Source: Nodosilinea sp. P-1105 (GTDB taxonomy: Bacteria > Cyanobacteriota > Cyanobacteriia > Phormidesmidales > Phormidesmidaceae). Taken from it: a stretch of 59,542 nucleotides of DNA. The stretch is taken from contig NZ_SMDQ01000032.1 in the NCBI RefSeq assembly GCF_012911975.1, positions 1 to 59,542 on the forward strand. The letters run 5' to 3'. The notes beneath the pieces were generated by a model. The model made no database searches, was not told where the DNA came from, and saw only the letters and a program-made list of their open reading frames with translations. Below, one piece after another: positions 3,801 to 57,563 of the stretch. Position numbers and translations under genes: made by a program. Within the stretch, counting starts at the first letter, position 1; the number at the start of each line of letters is the position of its first letter.

Positions 3801-4529
3801 CAAAACCTTATCTTTGGCTATTTTCGTGACTATCTTGACCAAGTCACCTGCTATGCCTTAGCTACCAATGTGACTAAATCTAACTTACCCCCTGATAAAT
3901 GGCAAAATTACATCCATGCAGCTAACTTTTTCAGAGATCAGGGTGAGTTCGAAAAGGCTGAGAAAATATACCGTAAAACATTTGGGGCCGCTAGAGCACA
4001 GGTATCTCAAATTCCACAATTGTCGAAAACAATTGACTTTATCAATCTGAGCTATGCAGAACTGCTGCTGCTCACTGAGTCGCCTAGTCCTGATGCAGCG
4101 ATCAAAAAAATTAATTGGGTTCTTAAGAAAAACTCAAAGCACGGTTATGCTCATCTCTTAATGACTCAAGCATTTCAAATTAAAGGAGAATCTTGTTATG
4201 GATGGGCGATAGCTCATTTCGAGCAAGCTATAAAGTTTGATAATCGGCTGAATGGCTTTATGTACTGTCAGCTTGGCCAATTCTATCGTTATACCCTTAG
4301 TGATATCCCCGCAGCTCGTAACTGCTATGAGAATTCGATAGGTCAGCAGGTCAACTTACCTGCTTGTGTCGAACTGGCTGAGTTGGAGATTGAGAATGGC
4401 AATTTAGAGCGGGCTAAATCGCTGCTGGAACAGGGCCTAGCACTGCCACTGCTGAAACGTACTGAGCAAGAAATGCGAGACAAGCTAAGTGGACGTATTG
4501 CTTTACTAAGGCAGCAAACCGGTTTGTAA
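801..4529 (+). CDS. Caspase-like peptidase / STAND-type NTPase / repeat protein
   Basis: A 1242-residue multidomain protein. Residues 1-250 are a caspase-fold (peptidase C14) domain: His100 sits in YFSGHGYEF and the presumed nucleophile Cys154 in LLDCCHAG. Residues 310-620 are a P-loop NTPase with Walker A GEPGAGKT (347-354) and Walker B-like FYVITDD (398-404), as in STAND conflict proteins. From 717 come six tandem 37-residue repeats (pattern GTDKQRRDAIDTTQTWLQQHP), then about 330 residues of TPR-like helices. Such proteins are thought to sense a signal through the repeats and release a suicide protease (family knowledge); target and trigger here are unknown. It is divergent from the Trypco1-like gene. 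There is no membrane segment. It is distinct from genuine metacaspases because of the fused NTPase. Confidence 0.85.
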   Translation: MPRYALVIGIQKYSGSGFQDLEKSTQDAEAVAQVLEKYGNWEVTRLPQRWNAEKQNWNGGQGCYEVAPDVALTGAELGAEISQFFEHAGRNEALIYFSGHGYEFTDSLAEITGYLVASDCTATTVSERGLSLESLNKLVIRAACSSVVVLLDCCHAGRLLERSLITRSLTAFQQGDRNYFLAAACRGHEKAYEGPEFSLFTKVLLDGLASPGRDGRVLASHVNTAIDEGLSGSGQEPVVLSSGGAITLATYGARAEALTQEEDALQTILKQLGDEKKYDVLDAAFFEAVAARVASNQARAQMLRLPGANWSMLFQGNYVERDQQGVALQQTQRLAQQPGISLMLIRGEPGAGKTALLRWLAHELVGQGKRVLHKQGTDQAGWLEELLTVSEATGGEHFYVITDDVFRDETILEELEQTELFFPLTIIATTRPNEDRHTELDGTGYETICLDLNKPSQAEKERILALPEVQSHLVGKSNAEREVLLDSPIMLVLMLQLSEGKPFDAILRDIVKSLPSSDDRPIYQAYGILCSFFQYNVIVPFEVLRLCLPAGNWSEQLILTELEGLVETTTYAGYEGLFPIHELIAKTVMDLDYRPGSANQPYAWSQPPLLEQNLHKIVPGLDASEEMQERWLRHSIRLLTLNGSVDLVGSILKYYTQEIEAVQQQGNTISSWVNWHKVYTLLNRRDDQNRCLDALLGTQPQTSWECSHWLSRISKSGTEQQRQDAIETTQTWLQQHPDDSSVRTHFLAFLSQWGTDKQRRDAIDTTQPWLQQHPDDSSVRTKFLGFLGQWGTDKQRQDAIDNTQIWLQQHPEDTNVRTQFLAFLSQWGTDKQRRDAIDTTQTWLQQHPDDSSVRTHFLAFLSQWGTDKQRQDAIDNTQNWLQHHIEDNFVRRQFLTFLERWGTEQQMRDAIDTTQTWLQQHPEDSSVRTQFLAFIGKQGDDIKNIEDLIIEQWHWLRDQRLAPQSSWEAFLPVLYHHASPDLYQPATDLVLQQHLGNKSIQNLIFGYFRDYLDQVTCYALATNVTKSNLPPDKWQNYIHAANFFRDQGEFEKAEKIYRKTFGAARAQVSQIPQLSKTIDFINLSYAELLLLTESPSPDAAIKKINWVLKKNSKHGYAHLLMTQAFQIKGESCYGWAIAHFEQAIKFDNRLNGFMYCQLGQFYRYTLSDIPAARNCYENSIGQQVNLPACVELAELEIENGNLERAKSLLEQGLALPLLKRTEQEMRDKLSGRIALLRQQTGL
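2949..3614 (+). repeat. Six in-frame tandem 111-bp repeats
   Basis: Units begin at 2949, 3060, 3171, 3282, 3393 and 3504 and each encodes 37 residues. Units 1 and 4 differ by only one base over their last ~75 bases, so copies were recently duplicated or converted. Unit 5 is the most diverged. Confidence 0.9.
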
Positions 4530-22693: not shown

Positions 22694-25210
22694 TTAAAAG
22701 TCGTAACTCACCCCTAGGCGCACATTAATACCCGGTTGAGAGAACCGGTCAATATCTGGGGCCGTAGCCGGTACAGCACGCACATCGTTATAGATGAAAT
22801 AACGGCTGTTAAGTAGGTTATAGATGCCCAGGTTAATCCCCAGATTTGGCCGCACGTTATAAGCCCCGATTAAATCCACCACCGCATAGGCTGGAGGGAC
22901 AAAGGTGGTGGTGCCCTCAGGAACACGAGCTGTGCCCACAACAGTACCAATCAGTTCAGCTCGCCAGAGGTTCTCAGGCGCTCGGTAGCGTAATCCCATC
23001 ACCCCCTGAAACGGATCAACACTGCGTAAGGGCTCATTGGCAGAGAGGTCATCTCCCTGGGCAAACCCTAGGGCAGCCGTTAAGCTAAAGCCGTCAGGAT
23101 CAGGGCTAAAGCGATATTCCCCGGCTAGCTCAAACCCATAGATACGAGCATTGGTGATATTTTGCGACTGGAACAGATTGACGACTGGCGTGCCCACAAA
23201 GGGAGGCGTTAGCAACTCTGTACCAGCGGGCTGCAGGGTTTCAATGAAGTTGTTGTAAGTGTTGTAGAAGCCAGTAACCCGCAGATCGAACTGGTCAAAC
23301 CGACCTCGCCAGCCAATCTCGTAGCTATTACTGGTTTCTGGTTCTAGATCAGGGTTGGAAATGGTTCGATATTTAAAGAAGGGACTGGTGGTATTGGTGA
23401 AGCCACTGCTAATTTCGCTGTACAGGGGAGCGCGGAACCCTCGGGCATACTGACCATAGACCGACATCTCTGGCGTAATGTTGTAAAGCACTGCCAGTCG
23501 AGGGGATAGGGAAGAGGAACTGAAATCTGCCCCTTCGGCTCCTGCTCGACCAAAAATTTCGTCCTCGCGCAGGGATAGGTCGTAGTAATCGAAGCGTAGT
23601 CCGGCAATGATTTCAAGATTTCCGAAGCGGATTTCGTCTTGCAGATAAGCTCCGATACGCAGGGTATCACCATCAGGGAAATCTTTGACTGGAAAAGTGT
23701 TAGGACCAATCACGTTAGTAGACGTGCCGGTCGTGAGATTCGTTTGTAAACCATCCCGCAGCCGGGAATTAAACGTATTAGACAGATCGAGCCCATAGGT
23801 GAGCTGGTGGGAGAGCGAACCGGTCATAAAGTCGCTGCGCAGTTGCACTTCACCGCCTAGGATCTCGCTGTCAAAACTATTGTTGTCTCGTCGCAGGAAG
23901 GGAGTACCCGCTTGAAGAATATTGCGGGTGATCGCTTCACTAACGCGGCTGTCCTGGTAATAGACTTGAGCCCGGGCAAATTGTAGCCAGGAGTCATTTT
24001 GGGGGTCGTCATACTCATAGCTGAGCCCAACTCGCCAGCGATTGGTGCTGATGTCCTCAACTTCATCGACTACACCGCCCACAAAGGACGTGCTTGAGTC
24101 GGGGATGGCGGTATTGCGGTTGATGCGAGAGTTACGATCGAGGCTTTCCCCCAACAGGCTAATGGAACTGACATCGTTAAGCCAGTAAACCAGATTGCCA
24201 AAGAACGTAGTACCATCGCGGGTTTGCGGATTAATAAATTCTGAGGCCGCCCGTACCTGGGTTTCGCGGGCATCCTGGCGACTGACAACAAAGACACCCT
24301 CTAGATCTTCAAAGCGACCCGCTAGGCGGACAGCCGTGTTAAACCCGCCGTCTTCACTGGTGTAGTTAGGGCGTAGCTGGGCGGCAAAGGTCTGGCCAGG
24401 GGCTAACAAATCGTCAGGTCGTAGGGAGCGAAAGCTGACTACGCCGCCTAGGGCATCGCTGCCATAGAGGGTAGAGGCAGGGCCACGCAGCACTTCTACG
24501 GCTTGCAGGGTGTTGAAGTCGACATAGTCACCCCGTCCTAGGTTGAACTGACCAAACTGAAATCGTTCCGGCAGGCGAATGCCGTCAAGTTGGAACAGAA
24601 TGCGGTTACCTTCTATACCGCGAATGTTGACATCCTGGAGGCCAAAACGCAGATTGTTGCGAGTAGAGACACCGGGCTCGTAGCGCAGCAGGTCTCGCAA
24701 GTCTTGCACTTGATTAAATTCAAGATCCTCTAGCTCAAAGACGGTGACCGTAGCGGGCAGGTCATCCACTTCGCGGGGGGTGCGGGTACCGGTAACGGTG
24801 ATCCGCAGGGTGCCGCTGGGGGCAAATTCCACCTCAGGCAGATCGTCCGTGGTTTGGGCCAGGGTGGCGGGTGCCAGATATCGGGTTTCAGGGACGGGCC
24901 GCAGGGAGGCACTTGTGGTCTCCGGGGTGTCGAGGTCAGCAAGCAGGGGAGGGGCCGTGGGCTGAACATCGATGTGGTCAGGCATCTCCTCTATGGCGGC
25001 AGCCTGTTCACCGGTAGCCAGCGGGGATTCGGGGTCAATTTGATGATAATGATCGTCATCAGATAGCTGAGACACTTCACCTGAATCTCGCCTTTCATCA
25101 GGATAAAAAGGCTCTATGGCATTTGCGATCGCTACTCCCCCAGACAATACTGGCAATAGTGGAGCAGCACAGACAAGAAAAATTCTCAATAAAAATTGCC
25201 TAAACATCAT
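22694..25210 (-). CDS. TonB-dependent outer-membrane receptor, haem-receptor type
   Basis: An 838-residue outer-membrane receptor. The signal peptide has the core FLVCAAPLLPVLSGG; a ~100-residue acidic/Pro-rich linker precedes the TonB-box/plug region (LRITVTGTRTPREVDDLP). The plug has VNIRGIEGNRILFQLDGIRL and RGPASTLYGSDALGGVV, followed by a 22-strand-type barrel ending in aromatic YDF. ARGFRAPLYSEI and SNPDLEPETS match the FRAP and NPNL boxes of haem/haemoglobin receptors (family knowledge), so haem is the leading substrate guess. Start at ATG 25210 (a second ATG follows), with GGAG just upstream; the open frame extends to TTG 25222. Confidence 0.92.
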   Translation of the reverse strand: MMFRQFLLRIFLVCAAPLLPVLSGGVAIANAIEPFYPDERRDSGEVSQLSDDDHYHQIDPESPLATGEQAAAIEEMPDHIDVQPTAPPLLADLDTPETTSASLRPVPETRYLAPATLAQTTDDLPEVEFAPSGTLRITVTGTRTPREVDDLPATVTVFELEDLEFNQVQDLRDLLRYEPGVSTRNNLRFGLQDVNIRGIEGNRILFQLDGIRLPERFQFGQFNLGRGDYVDFNTLQAVEVLRGPASTLYGSDALGGVVSFRSLRPDDLLAPGQTFAAQLRPNYTSEDGGFNTAVRLAGRFEDLEGVFVVSRQDARETQVRAASEFINPQTRDGTTFFGNLVYWLNDVSSISLLGESLDRNSRINRNTAIPDSSTSFVGGVVDEVEDISTNRWRVGLSYEYDDPQNDSWLQFARAQVYYQDSRVSEAITRNILQAGTPFLRRDNNSFDSEILGGEVQLRSDFMTGSLSHQLTYGLDLSNTFNSRLRDGLQTNLTTGTSTNVIGPNTFPVKDFPDGDTLRIGAYLQDEIRFGNLEIIAGLRFDYYDLSLREDEIFGRAGAEGADFSSSSLSPRLAVLYNITPEMSVYGQYARGFRAPLYSEISSGFTNTTSPFFKYRTISNPDLEPETSNSYEIGWRGRFDQFDLRVTGFYNTYNNFIETLQPAGTELLTPPFVGTPVVNLFQSQNITNARIYGFELAGEYRFSPDPDGFSLTAALGFAQGDDLSANEPLRSVDPFQGVMGLRYRAPENLWRAELIGTVVGTARVPEGTTTFVPPAYAVVDLIGAYNVRPNLGINLGIYNLLNSRYFIYNDVRAVPATAPDIDRFSQPGINVRLGVSYDF

Positions 25211-25264
25211 CACACTCCTCAATCAGGAATCAAAAGGTTATGGGTGAAACAGGAAACTTAAGGG

Positions 25265-29354: not shown

Positions 29355-29511
29355 TCCGGGCAGGCCAGAACTTAATCCCAAAATATCGAGCTTTTGCTGT
29401 CCGTTGCCTGATCCTCTGACAGGCCTAAGTGGATAGTTGGGCTTAATGAAAAAAACTGTTAATTGTGTAATATGGATAGAGCAGATTTCTACCATCCCTG
29501 GGCGATCGCGC

Positions 29512-30912
29512 ATGAGCCTTTCTGATATTTGTGGTCAACAGCATCAGCAAGAGCAGCAAAAGCTGCGCAAGATTTTGCTGTGGGGTCTGCTGGGGTCTGT
29601 GGGTGTACATGCTATCGGCTTCAGCCTCAGTCAGTTTAGCTTCTGGCAGGCGGCCACCGAGGAGCTGTCGCCAATTGAATTGATTGTTACCGAAGCCATT
29701 CCTGACGATCCGGAGACGCTGGTCGAGCCTGAGCAGCCCACCGAACTTAGCACCGAGACCAATGATCCAGCTCCCCCTGCGGCCAGTGCCCCGCCGCGCC
29801 CCGCTGCCGTAGTGGCTCCTCCCACGCTGGCCCCACCTCCGGTAGAATCGGTGACCCCAGACAGCCCTGAACCAGACACCCAGGCTGAGTCAGACCTGGA
29901 GGAAGCAGTCGCTGCAGAAGACGTGGACGAGGAGAGCCCTGAGGGGGCAGAGCAGGAAGCCCCTGAAGTGGTCGAAGAAGCACCAGAGGCGGTGGATCTA
30001 GATGCGATCGCCGCTGAACTTGACGCCCCCCAGGTGGAATCCCAGACCGAACGTTTGCGCGATTTGCTGCAACGCTTGCGTGAAGCGCAGGCGCAAGGAA
30101 ATTCTAACGGGGCTGAAACGGACCCCGGTCCATCAACCACTGCTGGCAGGGGCAATGTCCCCGAAGCCCCAGCGGGCAACGATACTGGGGTGGCTGCTGC
30201 CCCCTCAAACACCAGCGGTAGTGGTCAGGGGCAGGGCAATCGTACGGTGGCTTGTCAAAATTGTGTGCGCCCCAGCTATCCCCAGAGTGCTCTGAACGCC
30301 GGGGCCGAGGGCCAGCCAATGGTCAACGTCGACATTAACCCCGATGGCAGCGTGCGCAATGTCACCCTAACCCGCTCCAGTGGTAATGCCGCCATTGACC
30401 AGGCGGCGATCCAGGCGGCTAGACAGTCTCGCTTTCAGCCCATTGCTGGTGGGGCCACCAGCGTGCCAATTGAGTACGACCTCACCATCGAGGGATCTCG
30501 TCGCAACCGCGACGCTCGCCGCCGGGGGGAGCGCCAGTCTGTGGAAGTGCCGACCCCACCCCCTGCCGCCGACACCCCAGAACCACCACCAGCAGCAGCG
30601 ACCCCTGCGCCGGAGCCCTCGGCAGAGGAAGCTGACACCCCCCCTACGGCAGAGACGCCAGCGCCCCCAGCCCCAGCATCTACTGCACCAGAGCCAGCTG
30701 CATCAGAGCCATCCCCGCCGCCAGCATCCACCCCGGAGCCCAACCAGGGCGGTGCTTCCCCAGAACGGACAACCCCCGCGCCGGAACCAGCAACTCCCGC
30801 TGCCCCACTGCCAGTCGCGCCACCGCCCGTTACCCCACCACCAGCCACACCGCCGCCAGCCACCCCACCATCCCCGGTGGAACCACCACCAGCTAGCGAC
30901 GAAGCAAACTAA
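29512..30912 (+). CDS. tonB: TonB family energy transducer with long C-terminal tail
   Basis: A 466-residue protein. One N-terminal helix (KILLWGLLGSVGVHAIGFSL) is followed by an acidic/Pro-rich spacer (55-210). The TonB C-terminal domain is at about 250-330 (PSYPQSALNAGAEGQPMVNVDI; AIQAARQSRFQPI). Two cysteines (VACQNCVRP) precede it. Unusually, ~135 residues of Pro/Ala/Glu repeat follow the domain, which normally ends the protein. It transmits energy from ExbBD to TonB-dependent receptors. ATG 29512 is used; ATG 29446 is an alternative. Confidence 0.88.
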   Translation: MSLSDICGQQHQQEQQKLRKILLWGLLGSVGVHAIGFSLSQFSFWQAATEELSPIELIVTEAIPDDPETLVEPEQPTELSTETNDPAPPAASAPPRPAAVVAPPTLAPPPVESVTPDSPEPDTQAESDLEEAVAAEDVDEESPEGAEQEAPEVVEEAPEAVDLDAIAAELDAPQVESQTERLRDLLQRLREAQAQGNSNGAETDPGPSTTAGRGNVPEAPAGNDTGVAAAPSNTSGSGQGQGNRTVACQNCVRPSYPQSALNAGAEGQPMVNVDINPDGSVRNVTLTRSSGNAAIDQAAIQAARQSRFQPIAGGATSVPIEYDLTIEGSRRNRDARRRGERQSVEVPTPPPAADTPEPPPAAATPAPEPSAEEADTPPTAETPAPPAPASTAPEPAASEPSPPPASTPEPNQGGASPERTTPAPEPATPAAPLPVAPPPVTPPPATPPPATPPSPVEPPPASDEAN

Positions 30913-41163: not shown

Positions 41164-44100
41164 ATGGCCCCCAGCGTTTCAGCCCCCGATGCTCATTGCT
41201 GGCATTTAGCCCAGGCGGGTGATGCCGATGCGATCGCCCGTTTGATCAATCACTCGCTGCGGGGCCAGGCGGTGCGGGCCACCGCTACGGTGGAAGGCCG
41301 ATGCCTAGATATCACCCTGCGTTCCCCCTATGGCCTGCATCCAGACAAGGTATTCGCTTGGCTGCAAGCGGGGCTCTCAAAGCTAAGTCTACCTGGGGTG
41401 CAGCGCCTCAGCGTCACGGCCTGGACCGGGGAAGTTGTCGCCCCCACCTGGCAGCGAACGGTGGATTTGCCAACAGAGCCAGGGGTGGGGCATCAGACCC
41501 GAGTGGACCTTACCCCCAGCCCAGATGCCACCAGCGTCACCATCCAGGCCCGCGACATTATCGGACAGGTGGTGGTGGGCAACAACAATACGGTGATTGG
41601 CCCTGGCGGTAACTTAGTGGTGTATCCCCTGTCCCCTAATCAACGCCCTAGGGTGAGACCGGTCGCTGTGGGCGATCGCTTCTGTCCGCCGCCATTTCCC
41701 CACCTGCTGGACCGGGTTGAGGAGACCCAACAGATCGCCACGGCCTGCCAGCGGGGCCAGACTGTGGACTGCTTTAGTGCCCCGGGGTTTGGCAAAACTG
41801 CTTTGTTGCGGGCCACAGCCCATCGCCCAGAGATCACTGCCCAGTGCCCGGAGGGGGTGATCTATCTGCGGGCTGGTCGCCATACCGCTGCCGATTTGGC
41901 CCAAGCTTTGTTTGAGGCCTTTTACACCGCCGATGTTCCTTTTAAGCCCACAGACATTCAGATTCGTCGGGCTCTCAAGGGCAAAAAAGCCCTCGTTTTG
42001 ATTGATGACCTGGCGATCGAACGGGAGGAGGTGCAGGGGTTACTACTGAGCTTTCCCGATCTCACTTTCCTCTTAGCCAGCCAGCGCCGATCCCTCTGGG
42101 GGGAAGAGGCAGCGGCGATTCCCCTGCCAGGATTACCCTTGAGGGATGCGATCGCCTTGATCGACCATACCCTGGGTAACCGGCTCCAGGGATCAGAGCT
42201 CCAGGCCGCCGAAGCTCTCTGCCGCCATCTGCAAGGCCATCCCCTGCGGATTTTGCAAGCGGTCAGCCAAGCCCAACACCAGCGGTTGGGGATGGTCACC
42301 CTGGCCCAACAGGTGATGGCGGCCCCCAGCCCCGAACAAGCTATTCTAGCGACCCTGAACCAACTGCCTAACTCTGACCAACGGGCGATCGCGGTGTTAG
42401 CCCTACTGGGCGGTACCCCCCTCGATATTGGGGCGCTGGCCCATGTTACCGGCAACCCGACTGTGGCTACCTTGATAGAAACCTTGCAGGCCTGGCACTG
42501 GGTGCTGGGGGATGGTCTGGGGTACCGGCTGGCCGAAAATTTGGTTCAGCCTTTGCAGCCGCTGTTTCCCCTGGGGGATTGGCTGCCCCGTCTGGCCACC
42601 GGGCTGACCACCTGGATGCAGCAGCACTCTCCGGCATTGATTGCCGATCATGGCGATGCCATTGTGCAGGTGATGGAGTTGGCGGCCCAGGCTGGACAGT
42701 GGACCGAGGTGCTGCGGTTGGGTCAGGCCCTGGATGGGGCCTTAATTGTGGAGGCCCAATGGGGGCTGTGGGAGCAGGCCCTGCAGGTGAGCTTGCAGGC
42801 GGCTCGGGCAGTGGGCGATCAGGCGGCAGAGGCCTGGGTGCTGCATCAGCGGGGCTCCCGCTGCCTCAGCCTGGGGGATACGATTGGGGCCTATCCTGAC
42901 CTGCTCCAGGCGCTTGCGATCAGGGAAGCCTTGCAAGACACGGCCGCCGCTACCCTCACCCGCCATAACCTCAGCCTGTTTTCTCACCTGCTGAACCAGG
43001 ATGCTGACCCGCCCCTGGAATTGCTGCCGCCAACAGTGACGACGCCCGATCTTCAGCACCGCTGGCCCCTAGGCCGCTGGCTGGCGATCGCGGCCCCCCT
43101 GCTGCTGGCTGTGGTCACCACCTGGCTGGTGTGGCCTCGCCCTAACCCCCCTGGCGATCCCGTACCGGAGGAGCCTTCTGGGGATCCTCTCAGGCCAGAA
43201 GAGGACCAGCCCCTAACCCCCGACATGCGGGTGGATCGGGCGACCATCAACTTTGAGCCCCAGGAAATTGGCACCACCAGTGCCCCTCAAACCCTGACCA
43301 TCACCAACCCAGGGGAGGCCCCCCTGCCCCTTAATCCTCAGGCGTGGCTCACGGGCCGCCACCCAGAAGACTTTGTGATCACCCAGGTTTGCACCAGCGG
43401 CGATGGGGCCTTACCCGCAACCCTAGCGATCGCCCCGGGAGAGACCTGTACGGTGCAACTGGTTTTTCAGCCCCAGCAGGCGGGCGATCGCACCGCTACT
43501 CTCACCCTGTCCAGTGATGCCCTCGACCAGTCGCTGCAGATTCCCCTGGCCGGTACTGGCACCACCATCCCTAGGCTGTCGATCAGCCCATCCACCCTCA
43601 CCTTTGAGTCCCAGGTGGCTGGTTCCCAAAGTGACGCCCAGACCCTGACTGTCACCAACCACGGCACTGGAGCCCTCACCCTTGACGCGGTCACCCTGAC
43701 CGCAGACCAGGCTGCAGCCTTTCGCCTCGACCCCCAAACCTGCGCCGAGCAAACCCTAGAGCCCCAGGCCAGTTGTACGATTCAGGTGGCCTTTAGCCCC
43801 GGGCGAACCAGCCCCAGCCAAACCGTCCAGGCCCAGCTGCAGGTGCAAAGCAATGCCCCTGACGCCCCTCACACCATCCCCCTGACCGGCGAGGTTGTGG
43901 CTAACGACCCGGACCCCCTGCCCGAGGCCCGCTTGCAGGTTAGCCCAACCCAATTGGCCTTTGGGGCTCAGCCCGTCAATGGTGATGGCCAGTCTGCCCC
44001 CCTGGTGCTCGCCAACCCCGGCAGAGCCCCCCTGCAAGTGGAGGCATTGCGGATCGGTGGGCCCCAGGCCAGTGATTTTTCCCTCCAGCGCCGTTGCTCG

Positions 44101-44586
44101 GTGGTCGAACCTGGAGGGGAATGCCAGTTATCGGTGCAATTTCGGCCTACGGCCCCAGGCGATCGCCAGGCGACCCTCACCCTCACCAGCAACGCCGTCA
44201 ATACCCCAACTGTGACCATTGGGCTCCAGGGGCGAGGGGTGGTCCCTGAGGTTACGGTCAGTCCCAGCACCATCAACTTTGGCTATCAAACCCAAACGGT
44301 TGAATCCATCGTGATCACCAGTCGGGGGGAAGCTCCCCTGCGGATTGAGGGCATTAGCCTGGCAGGCAACAATCCTGACTATTTTGAAATTACCGCTAAC
44401 CGCTGTGCTGGTCTCACCCTAGCGACGGCGGGCAGCACCTGTACCATTGACCTGCGATACCACGGCGATAGCCGCTCACCCAATCCAACTCAAGCTGATT
44501 CGTTACCTAACGCGCAGCTGCTGATTCGCAGCAATGCCACCACCACCCCTGACACCGTGGCCCTCTCAGGGCAGCGGTTGATTTAG
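41164..44586 (+). CDS. STAND NTPase with membrane helix and four ASH/HYDIN-like domains
   Basis: A 1140-residue protein. 1-85: a small alpha/beta domain seen in various cyanobacterial signalling proteins (family impression). About 120-150: a beta segment, IIGQVVVGNNNTVIG. 195-530: a STAND ATPase with APGFGKT (206-212; the first Gly of the P-loop is Ala) and Walker B VLIDD (ends 282). 530-630: TPR-like helices. About 638-658: one membrane helix (LAIAAPLLLAVVTTWLVW) followed by Pro/Glu-rich linker. 688-1140: four Ig-like ASH/choice-of-anchor-D domains starting about 690, 803, 922 and 1029, each with a Cys pair. The NTPase should face the cytoplasm and the ASH tail the periplasm. Function unknown. 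Confidence 0.8.
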   Translation: MAPSVSAPDAHCWHLAQAGDADAIARLINHSLRGQAVRATATVEGRCLDITLRSPYGLHPDKVFAWLQAGLSKLSLPGVQRLSVTAWTGEVVAPTWQRTVDLPTEPGVGHQTRVDLTPSPDATSVTIQARDIIGQVVVGNNNTVIGPGGNLVVYPLSPNQRPRVRPVAVGDRFCPPPFPHLLDRVEETQQIATACQRGQTVDCFSAPGFGKTALLRATAHRPEITAQCPEGVIYLRAGRHTAADLAQALFEAFYTADVPFKPTDIQIRRALKGKKALVLIDDLAIEREEVQGLLLSFPDLTFLLASQRRSLWGEEAAAIPLPGLPLRDAIALIDHTLGNRLQGSELQAAEALCRHLQGHPLRILQAVSQAQHQRLGMVTLAQQVMAAPSPEQAILATLNQLPNSDQRAIAVLALLGGTPLDIGALAHVTGNPTVATLIETLQAWHWVLGDGLGYRLAENLVQPLQPLFPLGDWLPRLATGLTTWMQQHSPALIADHGDAIVQVMELAAQAGQWTEVLRLGQALDGALIVEAQWGLWEQALQVSLQAARAVGDQAAEAWVLHQRGSRCLSLGDTIGAYPDLLQALAIREALQDTAAATLTRHNLSLFSHLLNQDADPPLELLPPTVTTPDLQHRWPLGRWLAIAAPLLLAVVTTWLVWPRPNPPGDPVPEEPSGDPLRPEEDQPLTPDMRVDRATINFEPQEIGTTSAPQTLTITNPGEAPLPLNPQAWLTGRHPEDFVITQVCTSGDGALPATLAIAPGETCTVQLVFQPQQAGDRTATLTLSSDALDQSLQIPLAGTGTTIPRLSISPSTLTFESQVAGSQSDAQTLTVTNHGTGALTLDAVTLTADQAAAFRLDPQTCAEQTLEPQASCTIQVAFSPGRTSPSQTVQAQLQVQSNAPDAPHTIPLTGEVVANDPDPLPEARLQVSPTQLAFGAQPVNGDGQSAPLVLANPGRAPLQVEALRIGGPQASDFSLQRRCSVVEPGGECQLSVQFRPTAPGDRQATLTLTSNAVNTPTVTIGLQGRGVVPEVTVSPSTINFGYQTQTVESIVITSRGEAPLRIEGISLAGNNPDYFEITANRCAGLTLATAGSTCTIDLRYHGDSRSPNPTQADSLPNAQLLIRSNATTTPDTVALSGQRLI

Positions 44587-46554: not shown

Positions 46555-47019
46555 CTACCCCAGGTATCTTTCCACCAGATAGCGCTTGAATAGCACCCCA
46601 GAGCGGTGCGCCACCTCTGTGTCATAGCACCGAAAGCCAAATTTTTTAAATAACCCCAAACTCAACTCACTGGCCTCGGCATACAACCGGGGCAGGGCTT
46701 GCCGTTGGGCTTGGTCGAGAATTGTTTGCAGAAGTCGTGACCCAATCCCCTGATGTACCCGGTCATGGCGTACATAGACTGAGGCCACATGGCCATCGGC
46801 CCCCAGACCTGCAAACCCAACAATTCCAGAGTCATCCACCGCCAGGTAGGTGGTTACCGCCAAAATGAGCGGGTGAAACGACTCAGCATCAGCGGCCTCG
46901 GCCCAGACAGTCGTTTGGGCCGGGGTATAGTAATGGGGAGCATGGGTGAGGACTGTCTGGCGATACAGGGTCGCCAACTCTTGCAGATCAGCCGCTGTCG
47001 CCTGTCGTATCGTAGCCAT
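46555..47019 (-). CDS. GNAT family N-acetyltransferase
   Basis: A 154-residue GNAT enzyme: IRQATAADLQELATLYRQT at the start, acetyl-CoA loop VRHDRVHQGIGSRLL, and C-terminal LGLFKKFGFRCYDTE. It transfers acetyl to an amine; the substrate is unknown. The start ATG shares its A with the last base of the TAA stop of the WD40-STAND gene (TAATG), so the two are translated as a coupled pair. Confidence 0.88.
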   Translation of the reverse strand: MATIRQATAADLQELATLYRQTVLTHAPHYYTPAQTTVWAEAADAESFHPLILAVTTYLAVDDSGIVGFAGLGADGHVASVYVRHDRVHQGIGSRLLQTILDQAQRQALPRLYAEASELSLGLFKKFGFRCYDTEVAHRSGVLFKRYLVERYLG

Positions 47020-50000
47020 TAAACTACAGCTCCCAGCAGTTGTAGGGTGGTTAGGGTGGCCGAGGTTAAGCCAGTGACCCCTCGCAGGTTCATGCCTTCA
47101 TACAGGCGGTCAGCCACCAGAATTCGCAGACACTGGCCGGTTTCGACCTGCCAAAGCCGTACCGTTTGATCTTGAGAGCCACTGGCAATCACCTGGCCAT
47201 CGGGGCTAAAGGCCAGGGCAGACACCAGGTGGCGGTGCCCCTCAAAGACCCGCAGGCAGGTGCCAGTGGCCACCTCCCACAGGCGGATGGTGTAGTCGTG
47301 GGAGGCACTGGCCAGGTGGCGGCCATCGGGGCTAAAGGCCACTGCAAACACCCAGTTAGTATGACCCTCCAAACGCTTAAGGCACTGACCAGTGGCCACA
47401 TCCCATAGCCGTAGGGAGCGATCGGTACTGCTGCTGGCCAGGAGCTGCGCTCCACCAACAGGGCTAAAGGCCACAGACCAGACACGACTGCGATGCCCGG
47501 TCAGGGTCTGGATGGGTTGGCCGGTGGCCACAGACCAGAGGCGAATGGTTTGGTCGACGCCGCAGCTAGCCAGCAGTTGACCATCGGGGCTAAAGGCTAC
47601 CCCCAGCACTTTAGCGCTGTGTTGGCTGAGGGTGTGTAAGCACTGACCTGTGGTGCAGTGCCACAGTTTGACGGTCCAGTCAGCGCTGGCGGTGGCCAGT
47701 ACCGGTTGGTGGGGATGGTAAGCCAGGCCATTGATCCAATCTCCATGGCCTTGCAACACCTGAATGCAGCGCCCTGTGGCCACATCCCACAGGCGGGCGG
47801 TAGAGTCGGTGCTGCCGCTAGCTAGCTGCTGGCCATCGGGGCTAAAGGCGATGCCATAAATGAAATCCCCATGGCCGCTCAGGGTGTTTAGGCGCTGGCC
47901 AGTGTGCCAGTTCCACAGCACCACCGTTTTGTCGTTACTGCCGCTGGCCAGCAGTTGCCCCTGCCCCGCTGGGCCGGTAGCGTCACCTGGGCTAAAGGCC
48001 ACAGGCAGAGCCCAGTCAGTGTGCCCCTCCCAGGTTCTGAGGCAGTGGAGGGTATCGATATCCCATAACTTCACCGACTGATCAAGGCTGACCCCCACCA
48101 GGCGACGCCCGTCCGGATGCGGGGCCACCGAGCATACTTCATTGTGATGGCCCACCAGGGTTTTGAGACAGGTGTCGGTCTGCCAGTCCCAGACCTTAAT
48201 GGTGCGATCGCCGCCACCGCTGACTAGCCAGTGATCGATGGGGCTAAAGGCTACACAGTAAACACTGCTGCCATGATCTCGGTACGTAGCTAGGCAGTCC
48301 CAAGTGCGGCAGTCCCAGAGGTTGATGGTGCCATCGCCACTACCACTGGCCAGCAGATGCCCATCCCGGTTAAACGCCAGGGCATGCACCCAACCCTGGT
48401 GGCCCCCGAGGGTTCGCAGACAGGCCCCGGTCACCCCATCCCAGAGTTTGATCTGGTGATCGACCCCACCACTAGCCAGTAGGAGGTGGGAGGAGGCGAT
48501 CGCAGCGGGGGCAAAGGCCACGGACCGCACCCAGTCCCTATGGCCTACCAGGGTTTGCCAGCATTGCCCCGTGCCCACATCCCAGAGTTTGATGGTGTTG
48601 TCTCCGCCGCCACTGGCCAGGGTTTGGCCGTCGGGGCTAAAGGCGATCGCAAACACCTCGTGCCCATGGCCCGTCAAGGTCTTGACCCCGACCCCATCGG
48701 CGGCCTGCCAGAGGCGAATAGTTTGATCGGCGCCACAGCTGGCGATCAACTGACCATCGGGGCTAAAGGCCACCGCCCGTACCCAGTTGGCATGCCCCCG
48801 ACAAATCAGCTGCAACTGGCCGGTTTGGGTATCCCACACCCGCACCTGACAGTCCGTATCCCCGGTGGCAAGCCGCCGCCCATCGGGGCTAAAGGCCGCC
48901 GTCAGCACATTGCCCAGGGATTCTGTAAACACGCAATGGGTTAAATCGGCCCTGGCAAAGTTCACCCCATGCAGCTTCACATTCTGCAAATACGCCTGCC
49001 ATACTGTCAGGTCAGAAAAGTCGTAGCCGCTAATGTCCACCGCCAGCTGCAACAAGAGATTTAAGCTGTTGCCCCCGGCGTAGCCCATCGCCTGGGGAGT
49101 TCCCCCCCGCAGGGTAGATAGCAGCTGCTGTAGGGTGGTGGCAACGGTAGCAGCACTGCCCAGGTGGTTGATCAACTGATCGACAATGGGGCGCAGAATC
49201 AGGTTGACCTGGGTTTCCCGCACAAAGTCTTTGGCCTGGGCCTGGCATAGGGCATGGCTGATGAATAACCGGGGGGACTGGGTAACAATTTCCTGACTAA
49301 TGTGGTCAATCAGGCGGTGGGTGACATACTCCATGACCACCGGCTGCTGGGTGATGGCGGTGGATTTCCCCGCCTGGGTCGGGGGGGCAGCGGTCTCCAC
49401 CAGACAGCGCCGCCGCAGGGAATTTAACGATTCCCACAGGTCCGGGGGGGTGACCCGGGTTAGCAGAGCGGCCTGCACCTCTGCCACCGTGGCAGGCTCG
49501 CGATCAATGGCCAGCCAGTACATGACGGTTTTTTCTAGCTCAGTCAGGCGCTGAAAGTGTTGATCGAGCAAATCCCGAATGTCGTCAAATAAAAAACCGC
49601 CCGGTTCAGACACCGCCAAAAACTGGCTGATATCACCGCCAAAAAAGTCGTGGATGGAGGACGCCACAATCTTGAGGGCCAACGGGTTGCCCCCATAACG
49701 CTGAATCAGCCGCTGCCACTGGTCTGCCGTAGCCTGAAACTCGCCTTTGAGCGCGAATAACGCTTTGCCGTCTTGGTGCGGCAAGCCAGTTAACGGCAGC
49801 GATCGCACCGGCAAGGTCTCTCCCTCTAAGGCCGCTAGACCCTTTGGCTTCTCCCGGGAGGTCACTACCACACAACTCTGGTGGGCAGATTCCGCCAGAC
49901 AACGCAACACCTCCCCATAGGCCTCAAACCCAGCCCGATACCGCCCAGTGCGATCGCCCCCCTGCAAAATCGACTCAGCATTGTCTAAGACAATCAAGCA

Positions 50001-50762
50001 GCGATCGCGCCGCAAGTAGTGCAGCAACCGCGACAGCTGCCCTTCTAAGCGGAGGGGCAGATCCTGTTCCTGCTGGTTTGACAAGACTTGTATCAAATCC
50101 ACCAGAATGTCTGAGGGAGGTGGGGGGTTGCGGAGGGACCGCCAGATCACCGCTTGCCAGCAGGCCATGGGTGAAGGACTGGGGGTGGCAATCAGATCTT
50201 GAGCCAGGCGAATGGACAGGGCGGTTTTACCAATCCCCCCCATGCCCAAGACGGTAATAAAGCGGCAACGCTCCCCCGGACTGTCGGCCAAGATCCAGCG
50301 CTTTAAGGTGGCTAGCTCCTGTTGTCGCCCATAAAAGACCGTTGCGTCAGGGGCATTGCCCCAGTCAATCCGTAGGGGGGACAGGTTGTCGAGGGTAGCT
50401 GCCGAGGCGGTAGGGGCAAAATGCCATTTAGGTCGCTCTGGGTTAGGCTGCTCTGGGTTCCACCGAGGTTCAGCCCCCTGGGCTGCCAGGCTGTCTGCCT
50501 CAGCCACGGCTTGCCAATCTAACTTCAAGACCTCACAGTAGGCTTTAAATGCACTGGCATTAATCGCTACTTTTCCGGCCAGAAACCGCTTCCAAGTGCC
50601 TTCAGAAATTCCCGCTGCCAATACCCCTGCTGTGTCCCAGTCAGTTCCCAAGATGTGGCTAGCGGCTACCACCCAACGAAAATCATTCACTGGCCAGCCT
50701 TGTTCCAGTCTGGCGCGTTTAATTTGTTCCCGCCCTGATGTCGAAGCTTTGAGGGTAATCAC
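47019..50762 (-). CDS. STAND (NB-ARC) NTPase with 14 WD40 repeats
   Basis: A 1247-residue protein. 1-90: a helical HTH-like domain ([13 protein letters not shown] ... [12 protein letters not shown]), typical of cyanobacterial WD40-STAND proteins. 140-450: NB-ARC ATPase, Walker A GMGGIGKT (173-180) and kinase-2 LIVLD (Asp260). About 520-610: helical linker and pentapeptide-like ANxxxADL residues. 615-1235: 14 WD40 repeats, i.e. two seven-bladed propellers; repeats 4 and 8 carry insertions. The propellers are expected to sense a ligand and the ATPase to switch state (family knowledge). It is coupled to a GNAT gene by a TAATG overlap. Confidence 0.9.
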
Positions 50763-53631: not shown

Positions 53632-56346
53632 ATGTTGCAGTCTATTCAAACGTTAGGGTTGGGGTTGCCAATGGCCGCTACCCTGGGGTTGGCCATTGGG
53701 GCGGGGGGGGCTGTGCTGTTGCCGATGGCGTGGCCCAGGCTCAGGGGACATCAGCGCTGCATGGAGCAGCACTTGCAGGCGACCACCCTGGCCCAGAGTG
53801 AGCAACGGTTCCGCACCCTAATTCGAGATCTGGGGGTGGGGGTACTGCTGCTCAACCCCCAGGCTGAAGTTGTGGTCGGCAACCAAGCGGCTCGACGATT
53901 TTTTCACCTGCCGGATACATCAGTAACCACTGAACCCATAGAGTTTGGTCCTCAACTGGGTTACTTTCAGCGGCAGGACGGCACCCTTTGTCCCCCGGAA
54001 GAGTTACCCGTACAACGGGCGATCGCCCAAAAAGCGCCCCTCAACGATGCGGTGATTGGCTTTGTGGATCACGCCACAGTGGCCGTACGCTGGCTGCTGG
54101 TTAATGTCGATCCCCAGTTGGACCAGGCTGGTGAGGTGGAGCGGATCCTATGCACCTTTAGCGACATCACCCTTCAAAAGCAGGCGGAAGCAGCGGTGCA
54201 AGCGGTCGCCAACCGAGAAACCGCCATTAGTCGCATTGTGCAGCGGATGCGTCAAACACTAGATTTGGAGACGATTTTTGCGGCTACGACCCAAGAGTTA
54301 CAACAGGCGGTAAGCTGCGATCGCGTTTGGATCTATCGTTTCAACCCCGACTGGAGTGGGGTGGTGGTGGCTGAAGACCTGGCCGACCCGACCGCTCCTT
54401 CTACCCTAGCAATGGCCGATGCCAATGGGGCTAGTGTGGCAATACCAGAGAACCCTCGGCTGATTGATCGCTCGGACTGTGGTGCCCGTAAGCTGCAACA
54501 GGATGGCTTCGACGATAGCTATCTAGTGTTCCAAGACACCTACCTACAAGAAACCCAGGCCGAAACCTATCGCCGCGATCGCACCTATCACTGCGTCACA
54601 GATATCTACGATGAAGGGTTTGACCGTTGCTACTTGCAATTTTTAGAACAGTGGCAGGTGCGGGCCTACGTAATTGTGCCAATTTTCGCCGGTAGCCAGT
54701 TGTGGGGGCTATTGGGCATCTATAGCCATCACCATCCCCGTCCCTGGACCCGTCACGAGGTGAAACTGGTTCTCCAGGTGGGCGTACATTTAGGCACGGC
54801 TGTCCAGCAGGCCAATTTACTCAACCAAACCCAGCAGCAGGCCCAGGCCCTGGAATTGGCCAAACAGGCTGCCGATGCCGCCAACCAAGCCAAGGGAGAC
54901 TTTCTGGCCAGCATGAGCCATGAATTGCGCACTCCCCTCAACGCCATTTTGGGATTCACCCAGATTCTGCACAGGGATCCGGCCTTGGCCGATAACCACC
55001 GCAACCTGGTGGGCATTGTCAATCGCAGTGGCAACCATTTATTGGGGCTGATTAACAATGTCCTATCTTTAGCTAAAATTGAGGCCAACAAAATCACCCT
55101 GGATGAAGGCCCCTTCGATTTATCCGAGCTATTGCAGTCCGTCGACGATTTATTGCGGCTCAAGGCCGAGTCTCGGGGCCTTGAGCTGAAGCTGGTAGGA
55201 GCCGCAGATCTGCCCCCAACCCTGTGGGCCGACCACGGTAAGCTGCGGCAAATTTTAATTAACTTAATCGGCAACGCCATCAAATTTACCCCCCAGGGCT
55301 CAATCACCGTACGGTGGGTCTTGGCTAACGACCACCCAGTTCGGCCCTTGCCATCCACCGATGGCGATGGCGATCGCCCCCCCAAAAACCACCGACTAAC
55401 CCTGAGCGTCGAAGATACCGGCGTTGGCATTGCTCCGGCAGAAATCCCCCATCTATTCCAACCGTTTGAGCAGACCCAATCGGGGCGTCGTGCCGCCGAA
55501 GGCAGTGGCTTAGGACTATCCCTCAGTCACACCTTCGCCCAGCTCATGGGAGGGGATATTGCTGTGACAAGCGTCCCCGAGCAGGGGTCCACATTTACCC
55601 TGACCCTACCGGTTGGCCTAACGACCGCTGCCCCCACCGTCAGGGAGGCGGAGATCAAAACCTACCGACTCCCCGCCCACCTGACCTATCGCATTTTGGT
55701 GGCTGACGACGTGGCCGAAAGTCGTCTGCTGCTGCGCCATTGGCTAGAGGAAGCCGGGTTTGAGGTGCGTGAAGCCAACGCTGGTCCAGCCGCCATTGAG
55801 GTATGGCAAGCTTGGGCTCCCCAACTGATTTGTCTGGATATGCAGATGCCAGAGCTGGATGGCTACGCTGTCGCCCGCCATATTCGCCAATCCACTCTAG
55901 GGGATGACCCGGTTATTTTAGCGGTCACGGCGAGTGTATTTGAAGCACAGCAGGGTGATTGCTTGGCCGCTGGGTGCAACGCTGTCCTGCCTAAACCCTT
56001 GACTCGAGAGCTGCTGCTGGCGTGCATTGGTGAGCACCTAGGGTTAGCCGATGCTAGGGCCACCTGGCCAGAATGGCCATCGTTCCCTGGGGTATCCCCT
56101 GGAACGGTGGGGCAGCTTCCGTCTCGGCTCACCCCAGCAGATATGGCAGTCTTGGATTCAGCCTGGCTGGCTCAAGTGCATCGGGCCGCCCAAGCCGTTG
56201 ACGATCGGCAGATTCGTCAATTGATGCGCCAACTGCCCCCAGTCCACCGACCCTTGGGTCAGCGGCTCACCCAACTTCTCGATGAGTTTCGCTTTGACAT
56301 CATCATTCAGTTAACGGCCCCATCCCCGGTTCAGCCCACCCCTTAA
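53632..56346 (+). CDS. Hybrid histidine kinase with PAS and cyanobacteriochrome-type GAF
   Basis: A 904-residue protein. A hydrophobic N-terminal helix (LGLPMAATLGLAIGAGGAVLL) is followed by PAS (~55-185) and GAF (~205-395). The GAF resembles bilin-binding cyanobacteriochromes: DRVWIYRFNPDWSG, DTYLQETQAETYRR, and Cys333 in GFDRCYLQFLEQWQ, the canonical chromophore position followed by Tyr; Cys283 and Cys321 are extra. Kinase: His430 in SHELRTPLN, N-box NLIGNAIKFTPQG, G-boxes DTGVGIAP and GSGLGLSLS. Receiver: Asp736 in LDMQMPELDG. The C-terminal ~110 residues are Hpt-like or linker. A light-sensing role is inferred. It is followed 65 bp later by the cyclase response regulator. Confidence 0.88.
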   Translation: MLQSIQTLGLGLPMAATLGLAIGAGGAVLLPMAWPRLRGHQRCMEQHLQATTLAQSEQRFRTLIRDLGVGVLLLNPQAEVVVGNQAARRFFHLPDTSVTTEPIEFGPQLGYFQRQDGTLCPPEELPVQRAIAQKAPLNDAVIGFVDHATVAVRWLLVNVDPQLDQAGEVERILCTFSDITLQKQAEAAVQAVANRETAISRIVQRMRQTLDLETIFAATTQELQQAVSCDRVWIYRFNPDWSGVVVAEDLADPTAPSTLAMADANGASVAIPENPRLIDRSDCGARKLQQDGFDDSYLVFQDTYLQETQAETYRRDRTYHCVTDIYDEGFDRCYLQFLEQWQVRAYVIVPIFAGSQLWGLLGIYSHHHPRPWTRHEVKLVLQVGVHLGTAVQQANLLNQTQQQAQALELAKQAADAANQAKGDFLASMSHELRTPLNAILGFTQILHRDPALADNHRNLVGIVNRSGNHLLGLINNVLSLAKIEANKITLDEGPFDLSELLQSVDDLLRLKAESRGLELKLVGAADLPPTLWADHGKLRQILINLIGNAIKFTPQGSITVRWVLANDHPVRPLPSTDGDGDRPPKNHRLTLSVEDTGVGIAPAEIPHLFQPFEQTQSGRRAAEGSGLGLSLSHTFAQLMGGDIAVTSVPEQGSTFTLTLPVGLTTAAPTVREAEIKTYRLPAHLTYRILVADDVAESRLLLRHWLEEAGFEVREANAGPAAIEVWQAWAPQLICLDMQMPELDGYAVARHIRQSTLGDDPVILAVTASVFEAQQGDCLAAGCNAVLPKPLTRELLLACIGEHLGLADARATWPEWPSFPGVSPGTVGQLPSRLTPADMAVLDSAWLAQVHRAAQAVDDRQIRQLMRQLPPVHRPLGQRLTQLLDEFRFDIIIQLTAPSPVQPTP

Positions 56347-56411
56347 CTTTCTAGCCCTCAGCCTTTTGGTGAATAGTCCCTGTGTTATATCCCACCCCAG
56401 CACTAACGCCT

Positions 56412-57563
56412 ATGACTGCTCATTCGCCACCACCCCAGGCGGTTGATATTTTGATCGTCGATGACATCCCCGATAATTTGCGGGTGTTATCCACGATTTT
56501 GGAGACCGAGGGCTACAGCTGTCGCAAGGCCATCAGTGGTGCCCTAGCAGTACAAGCCACCCTGCTGGCCCCCCCAGACTTAATTTTGCTGGATATCACC
56601 ATGCCCACCATGGATGGCTTTGAGGTGTGCCAAAAACTGAAAGCCAACCCCACCACCCAAGATATTCCGATAATTTTTCTCACAGCTCGGGATGCTGAAG
56701 CCGAAAAGAAGCGGGCGTTTTCCCTGGGGGCAGCAGATTATATTGTTAAACCTTTTCAAGCCTATGAAGTGCTACTGCGGGTGAAGCACCAACTGGCTTT
56801 GCGTTGTCAGCAGCAACAGTTAGCTCGACAAAACCAGCAGCTACAAGCCGAGATCAAAGAACGCCAGCAGATCGAAGCGGAACTGCGTCAACAGCGCTTG
56901 CGATCTGAGCAACTGCTGATGAATGTGCTGCCGTTTCAGATTGCCCAGCGGCTCAAAGAACAAGACGAAGCGATCGCCGATCAGTTTGATGCCGTCACCA
57001 TTTTGTTTGCTGACATTGTCGGCTTCAGTACCGTAGCGGCCCAGCTAGCCCCTGCGGAACTGGTGCAGCTGCTCAACCAAATCTTCTCTAAATTTGACGA
57101 GTTAGCGGCCCTCTACCGCTTGGAGAAAATTAAAACCATTGGCGACGCTTACATGGTAGCAGCAGGGGTGCCAGTACCTCGCCCTGACCATGCCAAGGCG
57201 ATCGCCCAAATGGCCCTGGATATGCAGGCCACCATCGGCGAATTCTGGCGTCCCGATGGCCAACCCTTCCAGCTGCGCATCGGTATTAATTCCGGCAGTT
57301 TGGTGGCTGGGGTGATTGGCATTCGCAAGTTCATCTACGACCTGTGGGGAGACACGGTCAATATCGCTAGCTTCATGGAAGCCACCGGTGAAGCTGGCAA
57401 AATTCAAGTATCAGAGGCAGCCTACCAGCATTTGCGGGATGACTTTCCGCTGATCTCCCGAGGCCAGGTGGTGCTCAAAACGGCTGATAGTCTTAACACC
57501 TACTGGTTACTGTCACAACCTATCCCAAGTCCAGCTCACAATCTGGAGTTTTCCCACAGGTAG
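56412..57563 (+). CDS. Response regulator fused to class III adenylate/guanylate cyclase
   Basis: A 383-residue protein. Receiver 15-135 with phosphoacceptor Asp61 (LLDITMPTMDG) and Lys in YIVKPF. A coiled-coil follows (LARQNQQLQAEIKERQQIEAEL), then the cyclase domain at 190-370. Metal Asp201 is in FADIVGFS; Lys241 (IKTIGDAYM) and Asp310 (YDLWG) are the adenine-selecting pair; Asn317 is present, but the transition-state Arg is Phe321 (NIASFME), which should lower activity. The last ~15 residues are encoded by a dispersed palindromic repeat. ATG 56412 is used; GTG 56382 is possible. Likely target of the upstream hybrid kinase. Confidence 0.9.
   Translation: MTAHSPPPQAVDILIVDDIPDNLRVLSTILETEGYSCRKAISGALAVQATLLAPPDLILLDITMPTMDGFEVCQKLKANPTTQDIPIIFLTARDAEAEKKRAFSLGAADYIVKPFQAYEVLLRVKHQLALRCQQQQLARQNQQLQAEIKERQQIEAELRQQRLRSEQLLMNVLPFQIAQRLKEQDEAIADQFDAVTILFADIVGFSTVAAQLAPAELVQLLNQIFSKFDELAALYRLEKIKTIGDAYMVAAGVPVPRPDHAKAIAQMALDMQATIGEFWRPDGQPFQLRIGINSGSLVAGVIGIRKFIYDLWGDTVNIASFMEATGEAGKIQVSEAAYQHLRDDFPLISRGQVVLKTADSLNTYWLLSQPIPSPAHNLEFSHR

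Follow-up and report, generated by a model that had tools for sequence, protein, structure and literature searches.

Two adjacent genes in the cyanobacterium Nodosilinea sp. P-1105 raise the question of whether light is converted there into a cyclic nucleotide signal and, if so, by what kind of cyclase. The window that we analyzed is the whole of contig NZ_SMDQ01000032.1 (59,542 nucleotides; C122 of a draft genome of 6.0 Mb in 195 contigs), and the pair lies at positions 53,632 to 57,563. The first gene encodes a hybrid histidine kinase (HK) with a GAF domain, and the second a response regulator (RR) in which a receiver is joined to a nucleotide cyclase. These two genes are a real, conserved cassette of the Nodosilinea group. 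We favor, with about even confidence, the reading that it is a light-signalling cassette in which a short-wavelength GAF would act through His430 of HK and Asp61 of RR on an atypical cyclase, either slow alone or contributing a half-site. The domain composition, the conserved residues, the pairing, the purifying selection and the restriction of an Arg-to-Phe change in the cyclase to this group were established from the genomes searched; the signalling route is proposed from sequence. The two genes are as follows.

53632 to 56346, + strand: HK, ATG start, 904 amino acids, assigned from open reading frame calls, Pfam and orthologues in 19 other same-genus genomes; PAS (about residues 67-183), GAF (about 205-398), HisKA (420-485), HATPase_c (534-661), REC (688-798) and a C-terminal tail.
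56382 to 57563, + strand: RR, with REC, a coiled-coil-like linker and a class III nucleotide cyclase domain, assigned from Pfam and orthologues.

Pfam matched PAS, GAF (E 7.7e-19), HisKA, HATPase_c and REC in HK, and REC and Guanylate_cyc (E 4.7e-60) in RR; a single transmembrane segment was read from the sequence of the HK N-terminus. Translated from the GTG at 56382, RR has 393 amino acids and follows HK after 35 bp. The ATG at 56412 yields 383 amino acids and the 65 bp gap given in the initial annotation. In the nearest relative (genome G027) RR starts at the equivalent ATG and the gap is 64 bp. That annotation was also right in its coordinates, in its numbering of Cys283, Cys321, Cys333 and His430, in its Asp61 (counted from the ATG), and in naming the products a hybrid kinase and a receiver-cyclase fusion, as the Pfam domains and the intact kinase motifs bear out.

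The pairing was examined in 26 same-genus genomes (P-1105 and 25 others), with GAF matches accepted at E ≤ 1e-25 and orthologues at an identity of at least 70%. GAF matches were found in 22 genomes and orthologues in 20. The matches in G036 and G041 were more distant (42-45% identity), and G029, G037, G039 and G040 had no GAF match at the threshold. In all 20 same-genus genomes that hold both genes, HK and RR are adjacent and co-directional, so that the direct pairing noted initially from one sequence extends across the group. In each of the 19 other orthologue genomes RR directly follows HK on its strand, and the gaps range from -4 to 117 bp. The flanking genes are usually argS upstream (15 of 19) and pyrG downstream (17 of 19; in G022 about 1.5 kb off). 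In G038 and G034 the pair is intact even though the sequence fetched on each side (3.7-5.2 kb for G038, 2.7-4.2 kb for G034) showed neither argS nor pyrG; the pair therefore seems to be retained as a unit. Since the whole P-1105 genome has eight Guanylate_cyc matches, and the adjacency recurs in 20 genomes, chance is no serious explanation for it.

What the kinase might sense is suggested by its GAF, whose relevant features are listed here.

54244 to 54825, + strand: GAF, putative insert-Cys cyanobacteriochrome type (residues 205-398), from the Pfam match and best PDB relatives that are cyanobacteriochromes.
54478 to 54480, + strand: Cys283, predicted second (insert) Cys, in CGAR (residues 283-286, a CxxR motif) inside the insertion loop; from group conservation and the motif described in PMC5240096.
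54535 to 54546, + strand: DTYL (residues 302-305) at the DXCF position, with the Asp and Tyr kept and no Cys, in 20 of 20 group HKs.
54628 to 54633, + strand: Cys333-Tyr334, predicted canonical bilin-attachment Cys, from group conservation.

Searches of the PDB with this GAF gave cyanobacteriochromes as the top relatives, including 6bhn (NpR6012g4), AnPixJg2 and Slr1393 GAF3. Its insertion loop, from the segment ending VAEDLAD to the segment starting SYLVFQDTYLQE, has 43 residues versus 9 in 6bhn. A structure model had a mean pLDDT (the model's per-residue confidence) of 75.9 with 97 sequences (61 with 20) and matched cyanobacteriochrome folds. Papers are cited here by PMC number from excerpts, and what we attribute to them is limited to those excerpts. 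In insert-Cys cyanobacteriochromes the second Cys is described as lying in an insertion loop as CxxR/K, and DTYL is present in the insert-Cys protein UG1 (PMC5240096). In a different type, that of AM1_1186g2, the Cys lies in helix alpha3. Cys283, Cys333, Asp302 and Tyr304 are invariant in the 20 orthologues. We also compared 97 distinct GAFs (22 from the group and 75 others), a set gathered by similarity and therefore a biased sample; Cys283 and Cys333 were each present in 22/22 group GAFs and 69/75 others. At the fourth place of the CxxR motif, 21 of 22 group GAFs have Arg; of the 75 others, 42 have either Lys or Arg there. The GAF thus carries the sequence marks of an insert-Cys cyanobacteriochrome, in agreement with the cyanobacteriochrome-type domain first proposed. 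Because this signature comprises Cys333, Cys283 in the CxxR loop and DTYL, it predicts short-wavelength sensing by a dual-Cys photocycle with a near-UV/violet dark state.

Two other positions were considered for the second bilin Cys and rejected. The DXCF site reads DTYL. Position 321 varies: among the 22 distinct group GAFs it is Cys in 5 and Arg in 17, and in the other GAFs it is Cys in 33/75. Hence, of the two extra cysteines that had been suggested to shift the color response, Cys283 stands as the likely tuning residue of an insert-Cys type GAF, and Cys321 is not conserved. It is very unlikely, in our judgment, that this GAF binds no bilin and senses something else: GAFs are versatile domains, and the canonical Cys is absent from 6 of the 75 relatives, but Cys333, Cys283 and DTYL are invariant in the group and the nearest solved relatives are bilin proteins. 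The P-1105 genome has one match to Fe_bilin_red, the ferredoxin-bilin reductase family. AnPixJg2 (3w2z) has DTHL where the P-1105 GAF has DTYL, and the biliverdin-binding variant 5zoh also has DTYL, which makes biliverdin a candidate chromophore. Five family GAFs from Laspinema, Phormidium and Oscillatoria (L156, L161, L164, L165, L169) are without the insert Cys, and their canonical Cys is also lost (now Ser); these have EDCYMQ or ADCYMQ in the DXCF region, that is, a Cys at a new place.

The residues expected to carry the phosphoryl group are present in both proteins.

54919 to 54921, + strand: His430, phospho-acceptor in the H box SHELRTP, in 20 of 20 group HKs.
55837 to 55839, + strand: Asp736, phospho-acceptor of HK's own receiver, in 20 of 20 group HKs.
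56592 to 56594, + strand: Asp61 of the RR receiver (ATG numbering; 71 from the GTG), in 20 of 20 group RRs.

Like His430 and Asp736, Asp595 among the HK catalytic motifs is kept in 20 of 20 group HKs, and the DD acidic pair, D61, T and K of the RR receiver are intact in all nine group sequences compared. A C-terminal Hpt domain in HK was considered and is unsupported; Pfam gave no match there, and His850 is present in 18 of 20 proteins, with Arg in the other two.

The output end of the pair is less ordinary. RR has the two metal-binding Asp residues of a cyclase, the adenine-selecting residues Lys249 and Asp320 (GTG numbering) as aligned with mammalian adenylyl cyclases, and the transition-state Asn (Asn327). 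The exception is the following position.

57372 to 57374, + strand: Phe331 (321 from the ATG), at the position of the transition-state Arg of class III cyclases, from alignments.

The residue at this position is Phe in all 22 distinct group RRs and Arg in all 13 other Lys/Asp (K/D)-type cyclases compared, two of which are from the P-1105 genome; four further cyclases of that genome also have Arg, in an alignment that left out the eighth (L008). When 388 genomes of the class, among them 25 of the 26 same-genus genomes, were searched for exact matches to a degenerate pattern of the Phe motif, these were found in 20, the same 20 that have the cassette. The same pattern with Arg was found in 51 of 116 class genomes; within the genus, 25 of 26 genomes have it, among them every one of the 20 with the cassette. 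In the genomes searched, the change is thus confined to this presumably light-coupled cyclase. A second position, which we take to be that of Lys1065 of IIC2, is Gly in 21 of 22 group RRs and Ala in the P-1105 protein by our own alignment reading; it varies in other cyclases (Arg, Lys, His, Leu). The cyclase domain had dN/dS (non-synonymous to synonymous substitution) values of 0.035-0.079 in eight chosen pairs, which indicates strong purifying selection, and therefore the domain appears to be retained for something. The Arg in question is described as placed to help stabilize a transition state, and the Lys as contacting the gamma phosphate (PMC7384201).

These observations bear on three readings of RR. 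In the first, the one made originally, RR is a working homodimeric adenylyl cyclase despite Phe331, switched by phosphorylation in an ordinary light-regulated pathway. The metal Asp residues, Lys/Asp and Asn are kept, the family match is strong (4.7e-60), purifying selection on the cyclase domain is strong, and AphC-CyaC of Anabaena is described in the available excerpt as a light-to-cyclic AMP (cAMP) route of just this kind (PMC4284465). On the other hand, the transition-state Arg is lost in 22/22 group sequences and kept in 13/13 K/D-type relatives, and the Lys1065-equivalent is Gly or Ala, at a position that is, to be sure, variable in other cyclases. Because Phe stands for the transition-state Arg in all group members, ordinary homodimeric synthesis of cAMP is doubtful, and we regard this reading as possible but less than probable. 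The cyclic nucleotide output first proposed is therefore upheld as regards a receiver-cyclase in a conserved pair, and in doubt as a plain output, given that Phe331 replaces the catalytic Arg.

In the second reading the cyclase domain binds nucleotide without catalysis, as a switch, and RR signals by protein-protein contact. This would fit what is seen: under continuing purifying selection, the catalytic Arg is gone and the Lys1065 position has no basic residue. A pseudo-enzyme, however, would have no need of the metal Asp residues, the adenine Lys/Asp and the Asn, all of which are kept, and we judge this reading unlikely. Since these residues are kept while Phe replaces the transition-state Arg, an atypical cyclase is the most likely of the three. 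Pseudogene decay of RR was rejected on the dN/dS values (0.035-0.079). A GGDEF or guanylyl reading of the domain is likewise unsupported; the Pfam name Guanylate_cyc denotes the class III family, and the Lys/Asp pair is of the adenylyl type.

As an atypical cyclase, RR would either work slowly when alone or provide a C1-like half-site that depends on another cyclase subunit to make cAMP. The following sequence of events can be proposed. A bilin attached to Cys333 and reversibly bonded also to Cys283 would form a short-wavelength switch, as the motifs suggest; the GAF would have a near-UV/violet dark state and a photoproduct that may be blue, green or orange. The state of the GAF would set autophosphorylation at His430, the intact motifs being consistent with kinase activity. 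The phosphoryl group would pass from HK to Asp61 of RR, as the conserved pairing leads one to expect, and HK's own receiver (Asp736) might be a sink or a brake. Phosphorylation of RR would presumably rearrange the linker and the cyclase dimer. The dimer partner and the product are conjectural, and cAMP as the final output is uncertain on account of Phe331. Because the P-1105 genome has 17 cNMP_binding matches, 15 of them above the curated cut-off, receivers of cAMP plausibly exist there.

Several points weigh against this scheme. Most of the insertion loop that holds Cys283 has a pLDDT below 50 in the GAF model. A hybrid kinase can pass its signal to its own REC, or to an Hpt on another protein. 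A promoter scan gave 3 promoter-like sites, versus 2.4 expected by shuffling, with none before HK on its strand, and co-transcription of HK and RR has no promoter or terminator support. Finally, a single Arg-to-Phe change need not abolish cyclase activity.

If RR supplies a half-site, a candidate for the other half is encoded elsewhere in the genome. Class III cyclases have been described in which a subunit without catalytic residues depends on a partner (PMC8815786). Contig C16 of P-1105 encodes a REC-like cyclase paralogue (L002) of 403 amino acids with complete catalytic residues. Searches for this type gave a match in 34 genomes, and 29 matches were examined, 22 from the same genus and 7 from other genera. 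In all 22 same-genus carriers (L002, L245-L266) the phospho-Asp of the receiver is replaced by Ala, Val, Tyr, Thr or Ser. All Phe-type genomes but one (19 of 20) carry the paralogue, the exception being G027, an 83%-complete assembly, in which it was not found. These distributions invite the idea of a split adenylyl cyclase in which RR, with an intact receiver and a crippled site, would be the light-input half and the L002-type protein, with an intact site and a ruined receiver, the other half. If this were so, the heterodimer would combine a single complete active site with a single phosphorylation input, and light would lead to cAMP by a C1/C2-like division of labor. Against a strict partnership, the paralogue is also found in G029, G036 (100% complete) and G041, all without the Phe type (the G041 copy has one in-frame TAG), and among the seven copies from other genera the receiver is intact in L267-L269 and degenerate or mixed in L270-L273. 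The occurrence in G029, G036 and G041 and the state of L270-L273 weaken reciprocal degeneration as a strict signal of co-evolution, and the split cyclase can be offered as a speculative suggestion, and an improbable one.

The kinases of the group differ from one another at their N-termini. Of the HKs in the 19 other group genomes, 17 are 1090-1132 amino acids long, and that of G027 has 909. Pfam found an MHYT domain in all three long-form group HKs scanned, and a home-made MHYT profile, built from the long-form group HKs, matched 13 of 15 named group loci. The exceptions were the G027 record and G028, the latter left out of the judgment because its contig begins inside the gene. The HKs of P-1105 and G027 have no MHYT domain, and the P-1105 genome gave no MHYT match at E ≤ 0.001. 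A kinase tree separates P-1105 and its nearest relative, on one branch, from the remaining group orthologues on the other. Because the P-1105 HK retains a segment that aligns with the last helix of the MHYT region, loss of the domain in this lineage is favored over its gain in the other orthologues. An MHYT domain was shown in a 2024 study to sense carbon monoxide through copper (PMC11347149). Its presence or absence in otherwise matching kinases amounts to a natural gas-sensor deletion experiment.

Outside the group, the GAF lies inside a kinase in 60 of 64 named loci fetched. The N-termini of these 60 kinases, classified with our own profiles, were ETR1-like in 18, REC in 15 and MHYT in 14, with none detected in 13. 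Neighbors were counted by matches to home-made profiles within 320 bp, a census to which other kinds of gene are invisible and which missed L136, whose REC-GGDEF-EAL gene lies 325 bp off. An output gene was detected beside 31 of the 60 kinases, most commonly REC-GGDEF-EAL (21), followed by REC-HK (6), cyclase (2) and other (2); the remaining 29 had none detected or were at a contig edge. Pfam confirmed GGDEF-EAL in the five proteins behind that profile, and it also confirmed a cyclase at L151 and L124. In a quick kinase tree the 16 group rows formed one supported clade, and the cyclase label takes three changes. Since the relatives often neighbor GGDEF-EAL regulators and the group HKs neighbor a cyclase, the cassette resembles a naturally occurring swap of second messengers, the direction of which is unrooted. 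The L151 kinase (L151:157-4981, Microcoleaceae) has an ETR1 domain, three GAF stretches (one of them insert-Cys), HK and REC, and is followed 28 bp on by a REC-cyclase with the normal Arg; it is a separate gas-plus-light kinase beside a cyclase.

The same census bears on whether HK mainly serves another regulator or its own receiver, with the adjacency reflecting shared expression only. The intact receiver of HK fits such an arrangement, as do the 29 of 60 outside relatives without a detected neighboring output gene (a count that includes contig edges and the 320-bp gap limit). However, the pair is together in 20/20 group genomes, including the two in which argS and pyrG were not found nearby, and we think this alternative quite unlikely.

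The cassette is a variant built of known parts, and its surprising feature is the group-wide Arg-to-Phe change. No report of an insert-Cys kinase paired with a cyclase regulator was found in the literature searched, which covers few subscription journals, and in the same literature the terms "MHYT" and "cyanobacteriochrome" co-occur only in one review of cyclic di-GMP. By description in the excerpts rather than by direct alignment, the P-1105 GAF resembles insert-Cys cyanobacteriochromes such as Mbr3854g4/UG1, Mbl3738g2/UG2, NpF2164g3/VO1 and NpR1597g2/UB1 in the CxxR/K insertion-loop Cys, the DTYL (UG1) and the canonical Cys (PMC5240096), but it is joined to a kinase that is paired with a cyclase regulator. 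That light controls cAMP in cyanobacteria is established at the physiological level, and blue light has been linked with cAMP in Synechocystis (PMC4284465). In AphC-CyaC of Anabaena a photoreceptor kinase is said to phosphorylate an adenylate cyclase, as proposed here (PMC4284465). As excerpted, AphC is a phytochrome-like kinase of far-red light, whereas at the P-1105 locus the GAF is of the insert-Cys type, the two genes are adjacent and the catalytic Arg is replaced by Phe.

SynEtr1/UirS and GeiEtr2 combine a membrane gas-sensor (ethylene) domain, a cyanobacteriochrome-like GAF and a kinase, going by the excerpt of PMC6682694. Most group orthologues have MHYT rather than ETR1, the P-1105 copy has neither, and the neighbor is a cyclase regulator. 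The same kinase family includes L125 of Baaleninema simplex PCC 7105 (ETR1-PAS-GAF-HK-REC), which matches GeiEtr2 (Geitlerinema PCC 7105) by strain and domain order. CoxC, described as a one-component repressor with an MHYT sensor (PMC11347149), has this domain in common with most group HKs, though not with that of P-1105. In the mammalian membrane adenylyl cyclases, which the excerpt presents as heterodimers, a subunit without catalytic residues is complemented by the other (PMC8815786); the Phe-type RR differs in keeping Lys/Asp and Asn, and its partner is only a candidate. The Arg-to-Phe change poses the question of whether a class III cyclase can function without its transition-state Arg or needs a partner, and, with the photoreceptor kinase and the cyclase encoded side by side, the system is testable and movable as a unit.

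Elsewhere in the window, several other genes were observed.

801 to 4529, + strand: 1242-amino-acid protein with a caspase-like (Peptidase_C14) domain, STAND-type NTPase matches and TPR-like repeats.
22694 to 25222, - strand: TonB-dependent receptor.
29437 to 30912, + strand: TonB C-terminal domain protein, in the same stretch as the receptor.
41164 to 44586, + strand: 1140-amino-acid protein with HYDIN/ASH-type Ig-like repeats.
47019 to 50762, - strand: 1247-amino-acid protein with 13 WD40 stretches after a P-loop-like N-terminal part, as read from the sequence.

The HYDIN/ASH families are best known from eukaryotic cilia proteins.

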